This document shows, in pieces, positions 1,943 to 11,823 of a stretch of 21,441 nucleotides of DNA (the first letter of the stretch is position 1; the number at the start of each line of letters is the position of its first letter). This stretch comes from a virus, in IMG/VR virus record IMGVR_UViG_3300008110_001628, positions 1 through 21,441 of that record. One strand, given 5' to 3'. Position numbers and translations under genes: made by a program. The notes under the pieces are model-generated. The model was not told the DNA's origin, searched no databases, and saw only the letters and a program-made list of their open reading frames with translations.

Positions 1943-2169
1943 TGAGTATTTGGAAAAAAGTAGTAGACAATACAAACAATTCTTCCCGTATTGGGAAAAT
2001 GGATAAACCATCTTTACTTAATTGGCTTGATACAAGCCTAATGGAACTGGGTGGTTCTCTTGACAGATATAGGTTTCATAACGGTGAGTTTTCTGAAGTA
2101 ACAGAACTTATTAACATTGTTAATGAACTACACACTGCTCTGTGTTCAAGAATTGCAGAAGGCAAGTAA
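1942..2169 (+). CDS. Small helical protein immediately upstream of TerL
   Basis: I place the start at the ATG in the TAATG overlap at 1942, giving 75 residues; an in-frame ATG at 1936 would add two. The product is predicted to be almost entirely helical: a Leu/Trp-containing amphipathic stretch (about residues 22-45) and a second (about 52-72) rich in Ile, Val and Leu. Its stop overlaps the TerL start (TAATG), the slot where a small terminase subunit usually lies. It is shorter than typical TerS proteins and shows no obvious HTH, so it may be a reduced TerS, a packaging cofactor or something else. Position is the only evidence for a packaging role. Confidence 0.55.
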   Translation: MSIWKKVVDNTNNSSRIGKMDKPSLLNWLDTSLMELGGSLDRYRFHNGEFSEVTELINIVNELHTALCSRIAEGK

Positions 2170-3743
2170 TGCAAGAAACAGACCCAGAATTAGACGAACT
2201 TCAGCAGGTTCTAGACATTGAGGAATTAGCGCCAGAACTAGATGAAACATCTGCTGAATTTGTTGACATGCTGGTGAAACGTATTCTTATATTTACAGAA
2301 GAATTTTGTGACGTTGAGTTTTTTCCTTATCAAATACCTATTGCTTATCGCTTAATTGAATCCGTTATCTTAGGTGATGGTGACGAGTTGACAGTTATTG
2401 CCACACGTCAGTCTGGAAAGTCAGAAGTAATGTCTGCGGTAATGGCTTCACTAATGGTTATCCTTCCAAAACTTGCTCCCGTATACCCAACGTGGTTGGA
2501 CAAGTTTGAAAAAGGATTTTGGTGTGGTGTGTTTGCGCCAACTGAAGACCAAGCAGACACGGTGTTTAGCCGTATCGTAACAAAACTTACAAGCGATCAC
2601 GCTTTGAACTTCTTACTTGACCCAGAAATTGGAGATAAAGCAGCGTCTGGAGGCGCTCGTGGTAAGGGAAAGATTATTAATCTTAAGAACTCTGGGTCGC
2701 TTTGCCGTATGCAAACCTGTAACCCAAAAGCAAAAATTGAATCAAAAACGTACCATTTTGTAATTGTGGACGAGGCTCAAGAAGCCGACGAAGTAATGAT
2801 TACTAAATCCATCAAACCTATGTTGGCGTTCAATAACGGAACCATTTGTTTAACTGGTACTGCTAACCGTAATAAATCTTATTTTTATAAGATGATTCAA
2901 TTCAACAAACGACGCTTAGTAAATGCTGGAAGGCGTTATAGACAAGCACACTTTGAATATGATTATAGAGTAGCGTCTAAATATAACAGCAACTATGGAA
3001 AGTTTATCTCTAAGGAAAAACTACGCATTGGTGAAGATTCTGACGAATTCCAAATGTCCTATTGCAATCGTTGGATTCTTGAAAAAGGTATGTTTGTTAC
3101 TGAGGAACGTATGGAAAGGTTATATGACCAATCCATGCCATTAATTAAAGAATGGTGGAGAACTCAAGTAGTTGCTGGTATTGACGTTGCCCGTCAAACT
3201 GACTCTACAGTGGTAACTGTTGTTTGGGTGGATTGGGACCACCCTGATGCCTTTGGTTTCCACGAACATAGAATCCTCAATTGGTTAGAAATTAACAACC
3301 AAGAATGGGAAAAACAGTATTTTGAAATAGTTGATTTTTTGCGCCATTACGAAGTGATGAGAGTTGGCGTAGACTCCCAGGGTGTTGGAGGGGCGGTAGC
3401 AGAACGGTTACAACTACTTCTTCCAGATATTGATGTTATTGCAATGTCATCTGATTCCAAAGCACAGCATGAGCGGTGGGTGCACTTAACCGAACTTATC
3501 CAGAGAGACCAATTGGTTATCCCTGCCCATTCAAAAGCACGTCGCACAAGAACATGGAAACGATTTAATCAGCAAATGAGCGATTTGGAAAAGGTTTACA
3601 AAGGTCCATACCTTCTAGCCGCCGCACCTGACGAAAAGGGAGCGTTTGACGACTACCCAGACTCCCTAGCCTTGGCGTGTTCCATGAGCATTTTTGAGAC
3701 CATGCCAGAGATACAAGTAGGGTACTCTCCGTTTTTTAGATAA
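2169..3743 (+). CDS. terL: Terminase large subunit
   Basis: This 524-residue protein is the ATPase/nuclease that cuts concatemeric DNA and drives it through the portal into the prohead. The ATG at 2169 overlaps the previous stop (TAATG) and gives an acidic N-terminus; an in-frame ATG 27 bases upstream is less likely. The ATPase domain has the Walker A variant ATRQSGKS (residues 78-85) and Walker B VIVDEAQE (residues 198-205, catalytic Glu202). The C-terminal RNase H-like nuclease has GIDVARQTDST with D339, GVDSQGVGG with D402 and FDDYPDSLALA with D494/D498 as probable metal ligands. The length is normal for the family and no motif is broken. It follows the small helical gene and precedes a repeat-containing intergenic region. 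A TerL of the Terminase_6 type is essentially certain. Confidence 0.97.
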   Translation: MQETDPELDELQQVLDIEELAPELDETSAEFVDMLVKRILIFTEEFCDVEFFPYQIPIAYRLIESVILGDGDELTVIATRQSGKSEVMSAVMASLMVILPKLAPVYPTWLDKFEKGFWCGVFAPTEDQADTVFSRIVTKLTSDHALNFLLDPEIGDKAASGGARGKGKIINLKNSGSLCRMQTCNPKAKIESKTYHFVIVDEAQEADEVMITKSIKPMLAFNNGTICLTGTANRNKSYFYKMIQFNKRRLVNAGRRYRQAHFEYDYRVASKYNSNYGKFISKEKLRIGEDSDEFQMSYCNRWILEKGMFVTEERMERLYDQSMPLIKEWWRTQVVAGIDVARQTDSTVVTVVWVDWDHPDAFGFHEHRILNWLEINNQEWEKQYFEIVDFLRHYEVMRVGVDSQGVGGAVAERLQLLLPDIDVIAMSSDSKAQHERWVHLTELIQRDQLVIPAHSKARRTRTWKRFNQQMSDLEKVYKGPYLLAAAPDEKGAFDDYPDSLALACSMSIFETMPEIQVGYSPFFR

Positions 3744-4827: not shown

Positions 4828-5046
4828 ATGACCGATGCGTGGGCGATTATCATTGCGGCTGCTATACCCGTAGTAGGAACTGGAGTCGGTTTTCTTATAA
4901 GGGAATTCAAAAACTTCAGAGTAGAAAATCGTCAAGATCACGCAAACGTAATGTCCGAACTCCGTAAGGTTCGTCATGGTGTAGAAACTGTTGCAGGGCG
5001 TTTAAACACACATATTGACTGGCATATGGATAAGGAAAAGAAATAA
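4828..5046 (+). CDS. Small membrane protein with cytosolic coiled coil, lysis cassette
   Basis: The 72-residue product has one hydrophobic segment at its N-terminus (about residues 5-24, WAIIIAAAIPVVGTGVGFLI) followed by a charged heptad-like helix (about 27-60) and a Lys-rich tail. One-TM proteins with a coiled-coil tail often sit next to holins in phage lysis loci and act as second holins, antiholins or pore modulators. The start is 3 bases after the preceding stop, and the stop overlaps the next start (TAATG), tying it to the holin-like gene and endolysin. The membrane topology is clear from the sequence; the lysis role is inferred from position. Confidence 0.7.
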   Translation: MTDAWAIIIAAAIPVVGTGVGFLIREFKNFRVENRQDHANVMSELRKVRHGVETVAGRLNTHIDWHMDKEKK

Positions 5047-5294
5047 TGTCACAGTTTAAAAACATCATGCTTCGTATCCTTGCTACCTTTGCAGCATCAG
5101 GCTTAGGCGTTATTGGTGCAGGAGCAATTGCTGGAGTGCCTCTTTGGAAAGCCTGCTTTATGGCTGGTATTGCTGGAGTTGCCTTTGTAGTAGAAGGGTT
5201 GTCAAGGGCATTTCTTGACGATGGTAAACTTAGTCTTGACGAAATTAACGCCGTATTCAACAAAGTTGACGGGAAAGACGGAGATAAAAAATGA
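5046..5294 (+). CDS. Holin-like protein with EF-hand-like C-terminus
   Basis: The 82-residue product carries two hydrophobic segments (about residues 8-30 and 33-51) joined by a short Pro-containing turn, the layout of a small two-TM holin that forms inner-membrane lesions at lysis. The C-terminal tail is soluble and acidic: DDGKLSLDEINAVF (about residues 57-70) looks like a calcium-binding EF-hand loop and exiting helix, and a second D-rich stretch KVDGKDGDKK closes the protein. The tail may only mimic an EF-hand, since a full pair of helices is not present. The gene overlaps its upstream neighbour by TAATG and the endolysin by ATGA, a compact lysis cassette. Holin is the best reading, but I see no family-specific motif. 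Confidence 0.72.
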   Translation: MSQFKNIMLRILATFAASGLGVIGAGAIAGVPLWKACFMAGIAGVAFVVEGLSRAFLDDGKLSLDEINAVFNKVDGKDGDKK

Positions 5295-5842
5295 GTAAAG
5301 TTGCATGGGATTACATTGTTCCAGTGGTATTGCCAACAGACCTTAAGGGTGTTACACCTGGCAAGTTGCCAGCCAAACTACTAGTCCCCGCAGTAGGCGG
5401 TGGAAAGTTGCACCATATCGCTGCTAAGGCATGGGCAGCAATGGTTGCTACCGCAAAGGCTGAGGGTATTGAACTCAAGCCGACCAGTGCAGGCGACACG
5501 TATCGTGAATACGAGTTGCAGAAAAAAGGCTTCCTACAACGCTACAGCCTTGAAGATACGGGAACAGGTAAAACAAAGACCTTTGAAGGAAAGACTTGGT
5601 ATTTGAAGAAGGGCATGGCAACTCTTGCTACTCCTGGCAAGTCCCAACATAATCTTGGTATTGCTGTTGATGTTGCTAATGCTGCCGAGCCAAAGCGTTT
5701 GAAATGGCTCATTGACAACGTTAAGAAGTTTGGTTTCTCGTGGGAAGTAGTTCCTGAAGAACCTTGGCACTTGCGTTACGTATGTGGTGATAATCTCCCT
5801 CAAGCCGTGGTAGAGTACACGCAAAGGAAAGAAGCGCAGTAA
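5291..5842 (+). CDS. Endolysin, M15-family D-Ala-D-Ala carboxypeptidase (VanY-like)
   Basis: The 183-residue protein is a zinc peptidase that cuts peptide crosslinks of peptidoglycan. It has the M15 signature SQHNLGIAVDV with zinc ligands H120 and D127, and EEPWHLRY with catalytic E157 and zinc ligand H160. The upstream TYREYELQ (R72, Q77) fits the substrate-binding region that precedes the zinc site in VanY-type enzymes. There is no signal peptide, so export depends on the holin. No separate cell-wall-binding domain is evident, though residues 1-45 could be a small accessory region. The start overlaps the holin-like stop by 4 bases. Length and motif spacing are normal for single-domain phage DD-peptidases. 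Confidence 0.93.
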   Translation: MSKVAWDYIVPVVLPTDLKGVTPGKLPAKLLVPAVGGGKLHHIAAKAWAAMVATAKAEGIELKPTSAGDTYREYELQKKGFLQRYSLEDTGTGKTKTFEGKTWYLKKGMATLATPGKSQHNLGIAVDVANAAEPKRLKWLIDNVKKFGFSWEVVPEEPWHLRYVCGDNLPQAVVEYTQRKEAQ

Positions 5843-5866: not shown

Positions 5867-6139
5867 TTGTCAAATGACTCATTACTAAACGATTTACTCA
5901 ACCCATTAAAAACCACAAAAACATCACCTTGTAAAATTGGAAGGATTGTTAAAGACCTTCCTACTAACGAGCAAGACGCACTTGTAAAAGCCGTTGAACT
6001 TGTTCGTGATTCTGATGCTCAAGGCAAGAGCAAGGTGTATAGTTCTGTTTGGCTTTCTAAGGTGTTGCGTAAAAATGGATACCAAGTTAGTGTAAGTACC
6101 GTACAACGACATGTAAACAAGGAGTGCTACTGTGAGTAG
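5867..6139 (+). CDS. Small helix-turn-helix-like protein
   Basis: The start is a TTG at 5867, 6 bases after CTGGAG, because no ATG or GTG fits the frame and the reading begins SNDSLL. The 90-residue product has a helical core (about residues 34-50) and a C-terminal segment SSVWLSKVLRKNGYQVSVSTVQRHV (written in parts: SSVWLSKVLRKNGYQ at 59-73, then VSVSTVQRHV at 74-83). Its helix, turn and STVQRH helix resemble a DNA-binding HTH. Three cysteines (22, 87, 89) are too few for a clear zinc site. It overlaps the phosphoesterase gene by 8 bases. It may be a transcription regulator or a DNA-binding partner of that enzyme; the HTH call is by eye. Confidence 0.55.
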   Translation: MSNDSLLNDLLNPLKTTKTSPCKIGRIVKDLPTNEQDALVKAVELVRDSDAQGKSKVYSSVWLSKVLRKNGYQVSVSTVQRHVNKECYCE

Positions 6140-7286
6140 TTTAGAATCGGATTTAACAACACCATCTCAGGACAAGACTAAGTTGCTTGGCAAACTAGTT
6201 GAAATGCTTGAGAAAAAGAACATTGATATCAACGAGATTGGCGACATTAAACGTGTCAAGTTGTATCAAGCACTTACAAAAGATGCAGAAGGTGAAGCAC
6301 AGGTTCATGACCTTGCTGCAATTCAATTTTCACCTAAGTGGGAAACTGGTCCTGAATGGCCTGTTATTCAACAAGGTCCTGCAATTAAATTGCCAACACC
6401 TAAAGCAAAGAAAAAGAAAGCAACTACGTTTAAAACTTGCGTAGTTCCACCTGACATTCAAATTGGTTACTACCGCAACCGTGAAGGTGTATTAGAACCA
6501 ACGCATGATGAAAAGGCACTTGAAATTTGTATCAAGGTAATTGAAGATTTACAGCCTGAAGTTATTGCATTAGTTGGTGACAATCTTGACCTTCCTGAAA
6601 TGGGCAAGTATGTGACATACCCTGCGTATGCACAAACTACGCAAGCATCAATTGACCGTGCAACTTTGTTCTGTGCTCAACTCCGTGCTGCTGCTCCAGA
6701 TGCAAAGATCATTTGGCTTGCAGGAAACCACGAAGAACGTATGCCTAAGTACCTTGTACAAAATGCAGGTGCTGCTTATGGTCTTCGCAAGGGAAACACA
6801 CCAGACTCATGGCCTGTTCTTTCAGTTCCATACCTTTGTCGTATGGACGAATTTGGTATTGAGTACCGTCCAGGGTATCCAGCATCTGATTACTGGGTCA
6901 ATGAAAAGTTACGTATTATTCACGGTGACCGTGTGAAGTCATCAGGTTCAACTGCACATGTTTACCTTAACAACGAAAAGACGAGTGTTATCTATGGGCA
7001 TATTCATCGCATTGAAACGGCTTTTAAAACACGTGAAGATTTTGATGGTCCACGAACCATTATGGCTGCTTCTCCTGGCTGCCTTGCTAGAATTGATGGT
7101 GCTATTCCTTCTACTAAAGGTGGCGTAGACCTTGATGGTCGCCCACTTACTCGCCATGAAAATTGGCAACAAGGGTTGGGCGTTGTTCGCTACGAAGATG
7201 AGGGTGCTCACCGTTTCTCATATGATGTAATTCCCATCTATAATGGATGGGCTATTTATCAAGGCACTGAATACTCAGCCGAATAG
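6132..7286 (+). CDS. Calcineurin-like metallophosphoesterase
   Basis: Translation starts at a GTG within the end of the HTH-like gene. Residues 1-95 form a helical and Pro-rich N-terminal region ending in a Lys-rich linker (PKAKKKK). The catalytic domain then shows the family motifs in order: PDIQ (D108, with Gln110 where DxH is usual), GDNLD (D150, D153), AGNHEER (N199, H200), IHGD (H264, D266) and GHIHR (H290, H292). Such enzymes use two metal ions to hydrolyse phosphodiesters or phosphomonoesters; phage members include nucleases and nucleotide phosphatases. Replacement of the first metal-site histidine by Gln is seen in other phage members but could alter metal choice. At 384 residues it is intact. 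Its coupling to an HTH protein hints at a nucleic-acid substrate, which is unproven. Confidence 0.88.
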   Translation: MSSLESDLTTPSQDKTKLLGKLVEMLEKKNIDINEIGDIKRVKLYQALTKDAEGEAQVHDLAAIQFSPKWETGPEWPVIQQGPAIKLPTPKAKKKKATTFKTCVVPPDIQIGYYRNREGVLEPTHDEKALEICIKVIEDLQPEVIALVGDNLDLPEMGKYVTYPAYAQTTQASIDRATLFCAQLRAAAPDAKIIWLAGNHEERMPKYLVQNAGAAYGLRKGNTPDSWPVLSVPYLCRMDEFGIEYRPGYPASDYWVNEKLRIIHGDRVKSSGSTAHVYLNNEKTSVIYGHIHRIETAFKTREDFDGPRTIMAASPGCLARIDGAIPSTKGGVDLDGRPLTRHENWQQGLGVVRYEDEGAHRFSYDVIPIYNGWAIYQGTEYSAE

Positions 7287-7288
7287 CC

Positions 7289-7924
7289 ATGACTACCATT
7301 GTTGGTGTGCAGGGAGATGGATTTGCAGTTATCTGCGTAGATTCACGTATCTCTACCATGTTTGCAGGTGGTCTTGCCCAAGTAGGAACACTTAAAGAAG
7401 GGTCAAGCAAGGTATCAACTAATGGAAAATATTTACTCGGCGCTGCTGGAGATGTGCGGGCGATCAACATTCTCCATCATGTATTTCAACCGCCCACTCC
7501 ACCACCAAACCTTAGAGGGAAGAAACTTGACCAGTTCTTTACGGCGAAGTTTATACCAGCGCTCCGTGAGTGCTTTGATGCACAAGGATACTCAGTCCCA
7601 GACCTCAACGAAAACAAAGAACACATTGCAGAACAAGGGTCAAGCATCCTAGTAGCAATCAATGGCACTATCTACATAGTGGATGGTGATTACTCATGGG
7701 CTTCCGAATCCAATGGTATTTATTCAGTTGGTTCTGGGTCTTCCTATGCGCTAGGTGCTATGCAGGTACTTTTACGCAGTAAAAAAGTAACCCTACATCA
7801 GGCTAAAAGCAGTGCACTTCGGGCATTAGCCATTGCTTCTAAGTTTGACCCCTATACTGGTCCTCCGTATCAGACGTTTGTGCAAACTCAAGAAGTAAGC
7901 ACTAAACGTCGTAAAACGGTATAA
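7289..7924 (+). CDS. Proteasome-beta/HslV-like N-terminal threonine hydrolase
   Basis: The 211-residue product starts MTTIVGVQ. Removal of Met1 would expose Thr2 as the catalytic N-terminal nucleophile, as in HslV and proteasome beta subunits. Counting from that Thr, VDSR gives Asp17, the exact proteasome position. K41, in KVSTNGKYLLGAAGD, aligns with Lys33 after a short insertion. GSGSSYALG carries S149 (Ser129-like), and FDPYTG supplies D187 and T190 (Asp166 and Ser169-like). The catalytic set therefore appears complete. A Pro-rich loop (residues 68-74) and a basic tail (KRRK) are extra. No HslU or other unfoldase is seen nearby. The gene lies between the phosphoesterase and the portal region, starting 2 bases after the upstream stop. 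Roles in prohead maturation or host protein attack are both possible. The fold is near certain and the function inferred. Confidence 0.88.
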   Translation: MTTIVGVQGDGFAVICVDSRISTMFAGGLAQVGTLKEGSSKVSTNGKYLLGAAGDVRAINILHHVFQPPTPPPNLRGKKLDQFFTAKFIPALRECFDAQGYSVPDLNENKEHIAEQGSSILVAINGTIYIVDGDYSWASESNGIYSVGSGSSYALGAMQVLLRSKKVTLHQAKSSALRALAIASKFDPYTGPPYQTFVQTQEVSTKRRKTV

Positions 7925-8259: not shown

Positions 8260-9942
8260 ATGCCCATTGATTTTTGGTCACCGTCTTATCGTGCGGCTTC
8301 TAGTGACCTTACGGTATCTATATCCCCGTTAGGTCTTGTTGAACTTGCAGACGAAGAATTTGAGGTACACGGTCCACGCTTGAACCGCTATGCGGCAGCG
8401 TGGGCTTGGTACCTTGGGCACCATTGGTCATACCGCCGTGAAATGGGCGAATCACAGTTTTATCTAAACTATGTTCGCACAATGGCAGACTACATCACTA
8501 ACTTTTGTTTTGGTAGAGGTGTGCAGTTTAAAGTACCTGAGCAAAACAACGCCATTATCCCTCACCTTTTAAATGACGTTTGGGATGGGCACAATAACAA
8601 GCATTATGTTTTGTGGGAAATGGGGCAACTTGCCGCCGTTACTGGTGACTGCTTTGTAAAGGTTGCTTATGAGGAACCATACGTAGACACTGTTGGTATT
8701 CCGCATGAGGGACGAATTCGTATTATCCCTCTAAACCCTGCCCACTGTTTTCCTGAATACCACCCGCATGACCGTGACAGAATTATCCGATTTAAATTAA
8801 AGTATCGTTTCTGGGGTACATCGCCAGAAGGAACTCGTCAGGTTTACACCTTTACTGAAATCCTTACTGACGAAATGGTTGAGCAGTACATCAACGATGA
8901 ACTTATTGACCAGTATCCAAACGCTATTGGAATGGTGCCTATTGTCCACATTCCAAATACCACCATTTCTTCTTCGCCTTGGGGTCAGTCTGACATTTGG
9001 GATATCATCCCTCTTAACCGTGAACTCAATGAAAAAATGGCTGAAGTATCAGACATTATCAACTATCACGCCGCTCCTGTAACCATCATTACTGGTGCTA
9101 AGGCTTCACAACTAGAACGTGGACCTAAGAAGGTTTGGGCTGGCTTGCCTAAAGACGCAAGCGTATTTAACCTTGAATCCAGGGGAGAAATGGCTGGCGC
9201 TTTGGAATACGTCAATTTCCTAAAGCGTGCCATGCACGAAATTACAGGTATTCCTGAAACTGCTTTAGGTCAATTCCAACCAGTGTCTAACACTTCTGGT
9301 GTTGCTTTGGCTATTCAATACCAGCCATTGATGAACCGTTACACAATGAAAAAGGTTCACTTTACAAAGGGTCTTGAAAAGATTAACGAAATCATTATTC
9401 GTACTGCGGCTGTGTTTAGACCAGAGATGTTAGTTTATAATGGTCTTAAGGCTGCTCAACCAGAACGGGATAACTTAACCCAGTTAGACCCTGCTGACCC
9501 AATTACTTATAAAACAACGTGTCATTGGATTGACCCGTTGCCAACAGATGTTCTCATCAAACTTAACGAAGTACAATCTAAAATGGCGCTTGGGCTTGAA
9601 TCCAAACGTGGTGCTCTTAAGATTTTGGGTGAGGAGTTTCCGAACGAAAAGATGGAAGAAATCTTTGAGGAACTCATGGATGACGCTATTGACCAAGGCG
9701 CACTTGACATGCTTCGTTCGCAAATACAAATGGCAGTGATGATGGTAACAGGAATGATTCCTGGTGAAAATGGACCTCAGCCAGCAAGCGCTGGTGGTTC
9801 TGATGTATCATCTGCTGGTGGTTCTGAAGGAGTAATGCCTGGAACGGCAGTAAATCCGATAGAATCAGATTTAATGAATCAATTGGTAAGTAAGGCTTAC
9901 GGTGCTAGGTTCGCCCAGCAACGTAGTCCAGGCGAAGATTAA
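8260..9942 (+). CDS. Portal protein
   Basis: The 560-residue protein is the dodecameric portal that forms the DNA channel at one head vertex, docks TerL and later the tail. The stem and wing pattern is visible: an N-terminal RLNRYAAAWAWYLGHHW segment, a central GQSDIWDIIPLNRELNEKM helix (about residues 246-264), and the conserved EITGIPETALGQF (about 327-339) followed by SGVALAIQYQPLM. These are typical of SPP1-gp6/HK97-like portals. The last 60 residues include a Gly/Ser linker with a twice-used SAGGS and a basic end. The ATG at 8260 has no obvious ribosome binding site and lies 9 bases after the previous stop, so re-initiation is likely. Its length is normal. Confidence 0.92.
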   Translation: MPIDFWSPSYRAASSDLTVSISPLGLVELADEEFEVHGPRLNRYAAAWAWYLGHHWSYRREMGESQFYLNYVRTMADYITNFCFGRGVQFKVPEQNNAIIPHLLNDVWDGHNNKHYVLWEMGQLAAVTGDCFVKVAYEEPYVDTVGIPHEGRIRIIPLNPAHCFPEYHPHDRDRIIRFKLKYRFWGTSPEGTRQVYTFTEILTDEMVEQYINDELIDQYPNAIGMVPIVHIPNTTISSSPWGQSDIWDIIPLNRELNEKMAEVSDIINYHAAPVTIITGAKASQLERGPKKVWAGLPKDASVFNLESRGEMAGALEYVNFLKRAMHEITGIPETALGQFQPVSNTSGVALAIQYQPLMNRYTMKKVHFTKGLEKINEIIIRTAAVFRPEMLVYNGLKAAQPERDNLTQLDPADPITYKTTCHWIDPLPTDVLIKLNEVQSKMALGLESKRGALKILGEEFPNEKMEEIFEELMDDAIDQGALDMLRSQIQMAVMMVTGMIPGENGPQPASAGGSDVSSAGGSEGVMPGTAVNPIESDLMNQLVSKAYGARFAQQRSPGED

Positions 9943-9991: not shown

Positions 9992-10783
9992 ATGGCAAAG
10001 CAACCATCCCCAGAACAAGACTCTGTAGTCATTGGCACAGAGAATCCTGTTGTAGAGCAAGAACAACCAAAGGAAGTTGTAAAGAACTTTACAATTGACG
10101 ATGTTGAAAGTGCTCGCAAACAGGAGAAGGACAAGATGTACAAGCGTCTTGAAGAAGCCGATGTACGTGTAAAGAGCATGGAAGAACAACTTAAGATTAT
10201 TTCTTCCGAACGTGAAGAAGCCCTTAAGAAGGCTGAAGAACAAGCACAGCGTGAGGCTGAAATCCTTAAGAAGCGTGAGTTTGAAGAACTTACGGCAAAA
10301 GAGTTACTTCTTAAGCAGGAAACCGAATTCAACAAAAAGATTAATGATGTTGAAAACGAGTGGAAAGCACGCCTTGAGGAAATTGACCGTGACCGTCAAG
10401 CACAGGCTGCCCTTCTTGAAAAAGAGCGTCGCCACCAAGAAATTCAAACTTATCTAAACCGTCGCCTTCAGGAAGAACAAGAAGCAATTATTCCTGAATT
10501 GCTTGGCTTGGTTAGTGGAAATTCTGAAGATGAAATTGAAACTGCAATTGCTAAATACAAAGAAGCAAGTTCTGCTATATTTGAAAATGTCCAAAGAGCA
10601 ACTGCGGAAACGCAGGTTCGCTTTAAAGGTGCAGGTGTAACAGCCCCACCTGTTGGGCCGATGGAAACTCAAATGGAGCAGCAAACGTTGACTGCGGAAG
10701 ATATTCGTAATATGTCAATGGACCAGTATCAAAAAATGCGTGACAGGCTCTTGAACGCACGTTCTTCCAGAGGGCGTTTTTAA
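9992..10783 (+). CDS. Scaffold-like protein
   Basis: This 263-residue, highly charged protein has a long predicted coiled coil from about residue 36 to 170, dominated by Glu, Lys, Arg and Gln. The region after it is helical, then a Pro/Gly-containing linker (KGAGVTAPPVGPM) leads to a short basic C-terminal helix ending RDRLLNARSSRGRF. Coiled-coil protein with a basic C-terminal tail, placed between portal and major capsid genes, is the standard layout of a phage scaffolding protein, which guides capsid assembly through its C-terminus and is then lost. GAGGT provides a ribosome binding site 7 bases before the ATG. No protease active site is evident in it, so scaffold removal would need another enzyme or simple exit. 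Confidence 0.82.
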   Translation: MAKQPSPEQDSVVIGTENPVVEQEQPKEVVKNFTIDDVESARKQEKDKMYKRLEEADVRVKSMEEQLKIISSEREEALKKAEEQAQREAEILKKREFEELTAKELLLKQETEFNKKINDVENEWKARLEEIDRDRQAQAALLEKERRHQEIQTYLNRRLQEEQEAIIPELLGLVSGNSEDEIETAIAKYKEASSAIFENVQRATAETQVRFKGAGVTAPPVGPMETQMEQQTLTAEDIRNMSMDQYQKMRDRLLNARSSRGRF

Positions 10784-10838: not shown

Positions 10839-11823
10839 ATGGCATATCCAGGCCCAGCAGGTGGTGCAGTCACAGGTGCTGACCTTTCGGCAATTACGAC
10901 GACAGGTTACTCAAGTGATGCAAATGCCAGGTCTCACCGTCAACTTCATGCGTTACAACAACCTAGGTGTTGATGACACCAACGGTGCAGTATTGACTGA
11001 AGGTGTACGTATGGAGCCTTCCGCTCTGTCGGCATCACAGATTCAAATTACTGTAAAAGAACAAGGTAAGTCGGTTGCAGTAACCGAACTTCTCTTGAAC
11101 GCATCATTTGATGACGTTATGGCATCGTCCAGTCGTCTTCTTGGTCGTCACATGGCACAGTCAATGGACGTTCAGGCACGCAACACCTTGTACGCCGCAG
11201 GCGTTCCATTCGGTGGCGGTGCAGCCGTTGCTCCATCGGTAGTCTTTGGTCGCAAGACCAACGGTTCAACCCGTGGTTCAATTGCTCCTTACGAGTACTC
11301 GGCAGCAGGTTCGGCTTCGGCTCCTGGCTACCTCTCACCAGCAACCATTAAGGACGCTGTTGAAATTCTCGCAGGTCAGAACATCCCACGCCTTGGCGAT
11401 ACTTACGTTTGCTTCGTTCACCCATCACAGAGCCGTGCGCTTCGTGACTGGCCTGAATTCATTGAAGTAACAAAGTACGCTGCACCTGGCAACTTCATGC
11501 TTGGTGAAATTGGTCGTCTGTATGACGTAGTGTTCATTGAAACCACTCAGGTTCTTAAGGGTGGAACGAACATTGTTGACTTGGCTCCAGGAACCAGCGG
11601 TTACCAGGACCCAACCTCAACCTCATACAGCGCAATCATGATCGGTGACAACGCATTTGGTCAGGCAATCGCCTTGCCAGTTGAACTCCGTGACGGTGGC
11701 GTAATTGACTTTGGTCGTGAGCATGGTCTCGCTTGGTACGCAATCTGGGGCTTCGGCGTAATTACCGCAGAATCCCGTGTGATTTTGAATACCAAGGGTG
11801 GAGCAATTGACTCTAACTTCTAA
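10839..11823 (+). CDS. Major capsid protein (N4-gp56-like), frame-disrupted near the 5' end
   Basis: The body of the protein is read from about 10915 to 11823 and is a major capsid protein: MPGLTVNFMRYNNLG, an LTEGV turn, VAVTELLLNASFDDVMA, RNTLYAAGVPFGGG and a C-terminal GLAWYAIWGFGVI region match the N4-gp56-like family. The start is the problem. TACGGAGG sits 10 bases before the ATG at 10839, and that frame encodes a plausible N-terminus, MAYPGPAGGAVTGADLSA, but ends at a TGA at 10971-10973. The body is in the +1 frame, whose only upstream starts are GTG codons at 10861 and 10864 with no ribosome binding site. Relatives also usually carry about 25-30 residues between the N-terminus and the MPG motif that are absent here. 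A deletion, sequence error or frameshift is therefore likely. Confidence 0.85.

Follow-up and report, generated by a model that had tools for sequence, protein, structure and literature searches.

A proteasome-like Ntn hydrolase encoded next to a metallophosphoesterase in WhiB-carrying freshwater actinophages

The locus and its likely host

The window, i.e., the whole stretch of DNA analysed here, is a 21.4-kb virus record carrying terminase, VanY endolysin, portal, scaffold-like, capsid, sheath and tube genes; the sheath and tube genes in this structural set indicate a contractile-tailed phage. On the plus strand, as are the genes listed below from terminase to capsid, an ORF with an ATG start (7289–7924) encodes a 211-aa proteasome-like Ntn (threonine) hydrolase that begins Met-Thr and has no propeptide. 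Upstream lie the terminase large subunit (2142–3743; PHROG 2, E = 7e-27), a small conserved cassette protein that may be a membrane protein (4828–5046; PHROG 32850, 2e-6), a small holin-like protein (5046–5294) that matches the holin family PHROG 443 at 3.9e-6 and, more strongly, a PHROG named nuclease at 3.9e-22, a VanY/M15 D-Ala-D-Ala carboxypeptidase-type endolysin (5291–5842; Pfam VanY, 7.6e-17), a 90-aa protein with a TTG start that belongs to the conserved cassette (5867–6139), and a calcineurin-like metallophosphoesterase (6132–7286; PHROG 20266, E = 2.7e-82). Between the end of the metallophosphoesterase stop codon and the Ntn start codon lie 2 nt, a spacing that makes coupled translation likely. 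The structural model of the metallophosphoesterase is middling (pLDDT 68) and points weakly to MRE11/SbcD-like or Rv0805-like enzymes. Promoters and terminators around the Ntn gene are no more frequent than expected by chance. Close to its left edge, the window has a sulfotransferase-like gene at 390–1061 (Pfam Sulfotransfer_3, 2e-15).

Downstream, the portal gene (8260–9942; PHROG 64, 2.8e-42; 53% identical to the portal of Streptomyces phage pSt2308) is followed by a gene for a 263-aa scaffold-like protein (9992–10783), which matched nothing in family profile searches and is assigned by position, composition and a match of ~32% to the GiJojo and pSt2308 scaffolding proteins. The major capsid gene (10839–11823; PHROG 1357, 7.8e-56) is disrupted, with a 107-bp gap and a frame change compared with relatives. 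Within 10839–10923, the ATG at the capsid ribosome site (10839) is out of frame, and relatives L001–L003 carry 107 bp more; the disruption is probably an assembly error, and possibly a real one. The surroundings that the earlier note described, lysis and DNA-packaging genes on either side of the Ntn gene, are thus borne out by the VanY, holin-like, terminase and portal assignments.

The portal and capsid proteins of the window are 53–55% identical to those of the Streptomyces phages BRock, GiJojo and pSt2308. The actinobacterial marker WhiB is present in all nine long relatives searched (75–98 kb), and homologues of the Ntn protein occur in the isolated Planktophila phages LanE43 AprE7/AprF5 (33% identical; PMC10202952) and in the lake phage Actinomycetia phage DSL-LC01 (48% identical, annotated as an “ATP-dependent protease subunit”), whose genome is metagenome-assembled and whose host is predicted (PMC10611076). 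On these grounds, the host is likely a freshwater actinobacterium. A bacterial origin of the gene was rejected: one scan of a genome collection returned a single match, to a contig from a Gammaproteobacteria MAG that is probably phage, and plasmid matches are distant and mainly from rhizobia. A contig binned as Gammaproteobacteria (L097, JAURLY010000091.1) carries an actinophage-type cassette and, as judged by eye, a WhiB-like ORF at 7278–7706; it is probably phage sequence inside a MAG.

Fold and catalytic residues of the Ntn protein

The 211-aa protein matches the Pfam Proteasome family (PF00227) with E = 3.1e-7 and 30.7 bits, above the curated cut-off of 22.4, and PHROG 1040, “peptidase HslV family”, with E = 7.9e-26; PHROG 1040 is matched by all 13 phage proteins tested, the window protein included. 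A single-sequence search matched BPH (5OVS, E = 8e-5) and HslV, and a profile built from 13 phage relatives matches the whole of HslV (E = 2e-16), its position 2 falling on HslV residue 1. An AlphaFold model built on an alignment of 19 relatives reaches a pLDDT of 82 and a pTM of 0.80, being a monomer prediction and the upper end of five runs that ranged from pLDDT 49 to 82. The model shows the strand and helix order of proteasome-like proteins, with the Ntn beta-sandwich flanked by helices H1 (56–64), H2 (77–98), H3 (151–161) and H4 (169–186), and ends in a strand (195–200) followed by a low-confidence tail. Foldseek places BPH (5ovs) first among PDB entries (E = 1.3e-11, TM 0.67/0.76), followed by HslV and proteasome beta chains; among viral models the top match is a phage protein named HslV (E = 6e-24). 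The structure prediction with structural search, which the earlier note had proposed as a check alongside the profile search against the Proteasome family, recovers the Ntn core, and the family matches are far beyond chance. The loop after H2, 19–20 residues long and modelled with low confidence, is on average mildly acidic (3.6 Asp/Glu vs 1.3 Lys/Arg), a pattern closer to a BPH-like pore loop than to the short linker of HslV. Across the portal-linked Ntn clade, a basic C-terminal tail ending in RK(T/P/A)V is conserved (window 7901–7921).

Conservation was counted over 97 aligned sequences, 96 of them distinct, in which the single gap at the catalytic columns stems from an incomplete contig. 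The nucleophile Thr2 (mature Thr1; codon 7292–7294) is Thr in 95 and Ser in one of the 96 sequences having the position, the lone Ser belonging to Tenacibaculum phage pT24. Asp18 (mature Asp17; 7340–7342) and Lys41 (mature 40; 7409–7411) are each invariant in 96/96; Lys41 is the equivalent of proteasome Lys33 and aligns to BPH Lys37 in the single-sequence search (BPH numbering from PMC5777263). Gly51, at the oxyanion-hole position of proteasome Gly47 (7439–7441), is invariant in all 97, and Gly54 is also present in the oxyanion loop. In the FDPYTG motif, Asp187-Pro-Tyr-Thr190 (7847–7858) supplies the pair resembling Asp166 and Ser169, with Asp187 kept in 94/97 and Thr190 in 93/97. The complete catalytic set that had been read from this ORF is accordingly present, and its Thr2 and Asp18, whose loss in homologues would have spoken against an active enzyme, are retained throughout the alignment apart from the one Ser. 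Less strict than that reading implied is the Ser129-like serine, which is indeed found in the GSGS loop as Ser149 (7733–7735), with the column holding Ser in 61, Thr in 35 and Cys in one of the sequences. For two sets of Ntn genes of the same length, median dN/dS is 0.10 in one and 0.03 in the other, indicating purifying selection. Judged by these residues and the predicted fold, the window protein is almost certainly an active-type enzyme.

Conserved neighbourhood and search for an unfoldase

A metallophosphoesterase gene lies directly upstream of Ntn in 148 of the 162 loci with enough upstream sequence, and 86 of 123 loci have VanY no more than 6 kb upstream; the loci were picked for their similarity to two queries, and near-copies among them inflate these counts, which do not represent independent events. 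In the window-type contigs, of which there are about 80, VanY is followed in nearly constant order by the small protein, metallophosphoesterase, Ntn and portal, and some of these contigs place VanY upstream of the terminase. A second phage group, found via L097, has VanY and holin-like genes together with metallophosphoesterase and Ntn, but the gene after Ntn is not a portal. In a quick tree of the Ntn gene, portal-linked sequences form nearly one group; the exception, L206, sits inside the other clade, as would be expected if phage types had exchanged the gene at least once. In Clavibacter phage CN1A, a VanY endolysin and two holins directly precede a metallophosphoesterase with no Ntn annotated nearby, so the link between lysis genes and the phosphoesterase probably exists without the peptidase as well. 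On this pattern it is conceivable, but doubtful, that the peptidase belongs permanently to a lysis cassette of actinophages (VanY, holin-like, metallophosphoesterase) that passes as a unit from one phage type to another, and that it works free of an unfoldase in timing or finishing the late events of infection.

In the nine relatives of 75–98 kb, the AAA_2 profile (HslU/ClpX/ClpA) had no match, while as a positive control it matched in all 14 reference genomes; AAA_5 had no match in the long relatives, and the AAA profile gave two weak matches there, both below threshold. The earlier note's remark that no HslU is visible hence extends from the window to these nine contigs. Among ten larger phages from the second set, two carry a strong AAA_2 protein. 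The freshwater phage contigs L242 and L243 (169–203 kb) encode single-domain ClpB/ClpA-like AAA+ proteins, assigned by NCBIfam score in L242 and by eye in L243; the scored protein, which is not HslU, lies ~58 kb from the Ntn gene of the same contig.

Proposed activity and relation to known proteasome homologues

Collectively, we think that the gene probably encodes a catalytically competent group I (HslV/BPH/AAH-like) threonine peptidase of a contractile-tailed freshwater actinophage, one that would be independent of an unfoldase, ring-forming and made late. Host methionine aminopeptidase would take off Met1 and expose Thr2 as the nucleophile, whose reactivity would be tuned by Lys41 and Asp18. 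As in BPH, the subunits probably form a single or double ring with the active sites inside. BPH itself shows removal of Met by mass spectrometry and an epoxomicin-reactive Thr1, and has no known partner unfoldase; its authors discuss a narrow substrate range, which suggests that the activity of the phage enzyme may be narrow too (PMC5777263). Working with no dedicated AAA+ unfoldase, the enzyme would act on peptides, on proteins that are already unfolded or on a particular partner, although a host unfoldase could serve it. Its likely translation straight after the metallophosphoesterase, within a putative late block that also contains the VanY and holin-like genes, suggests that the peptidase acts late in infection.

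In window-type phages the Ntn gene is always the direct upstream neighbour of the portal block, and no other protease was recognised in the head region, both of which would suit a prohead protease cutting scaffold or capsid during head assembly. We regard this as improbable, and the place of the gene in a structural region, to which the earlier note had attached weight, does not hold up as a sign of a structural role. The portal-scaffold-capsid module is shared by the whole genomes of BRock, GiJojo and pSt2308 and by some 60 related contigs (identity of this Streptomyces lineage to the window is ~43–61% for the portal and ~53–56% for the capsid, 62% in one), yet none of them has an Ntn gene, which argues against a function in head maturation; in GiJojo none of the genes from terminase to portal is a recognised protease, and the second phage group maintains its cassette with no portal following. 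A prohead protease was rejected on the BRock-type lineage and the portal-free cassettes. It is also known that a separate scaffold gene can render a protease dispensable. The same absence from the Streptomyces lineage is what an accessory, moron-type enzyme would predict, one that breaks down proteins of the host or of defence systems, or that serves amino-acid recycling in nutrient-poor freshwater hosts, and for which the lysis cassette is just a convenient insertion point. Homologues in unrelated contexts, beside WhiB in DSL-LC01, with tRNA/ThyX genes in Pumpernickel and near DHFR in Geobacillus virus E3, speak for such an enzyme, whereas the constancy with which many freshwater phages keep the gene together with the metallophosphoesterase speaks against it, as does the lack of a PADLOC match, PADLOC covering defence proteins and not counter-defence; on balance we hold it to be unlikely. 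A defence-related family was rejected on the PADLOC result.

HslV proper, paired with an HslU-type unfoldase from phage or host, has in its favour that HslV is among the best profile and structure matches and that “HslV” is a common annotation. However, the window Ntn protein scores 28.8–30.9 bits against HslV equivalog cut-offs of 137–158, carries a long loop at the site of HslV's short linker, and comes from a group whose nine long members lack the AAA_2 domain, the scored AAA_2 protein of the large phages being ClpB/ClpA-like; HslVU was rejected on the score and on the missing HslU-type ATPase, and we give this pairing hardly any credence. Scarcely more credible is an Ntn fold devoid of peptidase activity, e.g., an amidase or a connectase-like ligase: the proteasome-like family does include connectase, a ligase (PMC8665760), but connectase has no H1 or H2 and bears a helical insertion between S3 and S4, whereas the window model has both helices and no insertion.

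The threonine peptidase proposed here is not the uncharacterised enzyme system that the earlier note suggested. Fuchs, Alva and Lupas (2021) described the phage-borne proteasome homologues PPH and AAH, with no AAA+ partner and no gene context suggestive of function for either, and with no AAH from an actinobacteria-specific phage (PMC8665760); in addition, PHROG 1040 is curated and deposited phages are annotated “HslV” or “protease”. The window protein belongs to this already-described class, and the gene context is the new part: a WhiB-carrying freshwater actinophage group with a conserved metallophosphoesterase neighbour in two phage contexts. A constant neighbour, usually with lysis genes, in a large freshwater group offers a first testable context for phage proteasome homologues, and the isolated Planktophila phages with their distant Ntn homologue are a cultivable system.

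Like the window protein, PPH and AAH are phage-borne group I proteins with an intact catalytic triad, no propeptide and no identified partner ATPase. PPH has ~140 aa and no H2; membership in it was rejected, the window protein being too long at 211 aa and having H1 and the helix 77–98 (H2); AAH is the likelier class. The window type differs from the published AAH in its WhiB-carrying genomes and conserved cassette. PHROG 1040, which the window protein matches, has members in several gene contexts. DSL-LC01 and AprE7/AprF5 are also freshwater actinophages with a homologue, but of other phage types, with the gene away from a metallophosphoesterase or portal. BPH of Thiobacillus denitrificans (5OVS), the top solved-structure match both by fold and by single sequence, shares the T1-D17-K37 pattern and the lack of a known unfoldase, and the loop of the window protein would suit BPH's long acidic pore loop in its length and mild acidity. 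BPH is 24% identical and a bacterial gene product; it forms a heptameric double ring, and the window protein, modelled as a monomer, may form a ring too. HslV (ClpQ) shares the fold, the Thr1 nucleophile and the GSG loop, and differs by the equivalog scores, the HslU partner and the shorter loop after H2. The 20S proteasome beta subunit has a propeptide where the window protein has Met directly before Thr, and Anbu has a C-terminal helix H5, whereas the window model closes with strand 195–200 and its tail.
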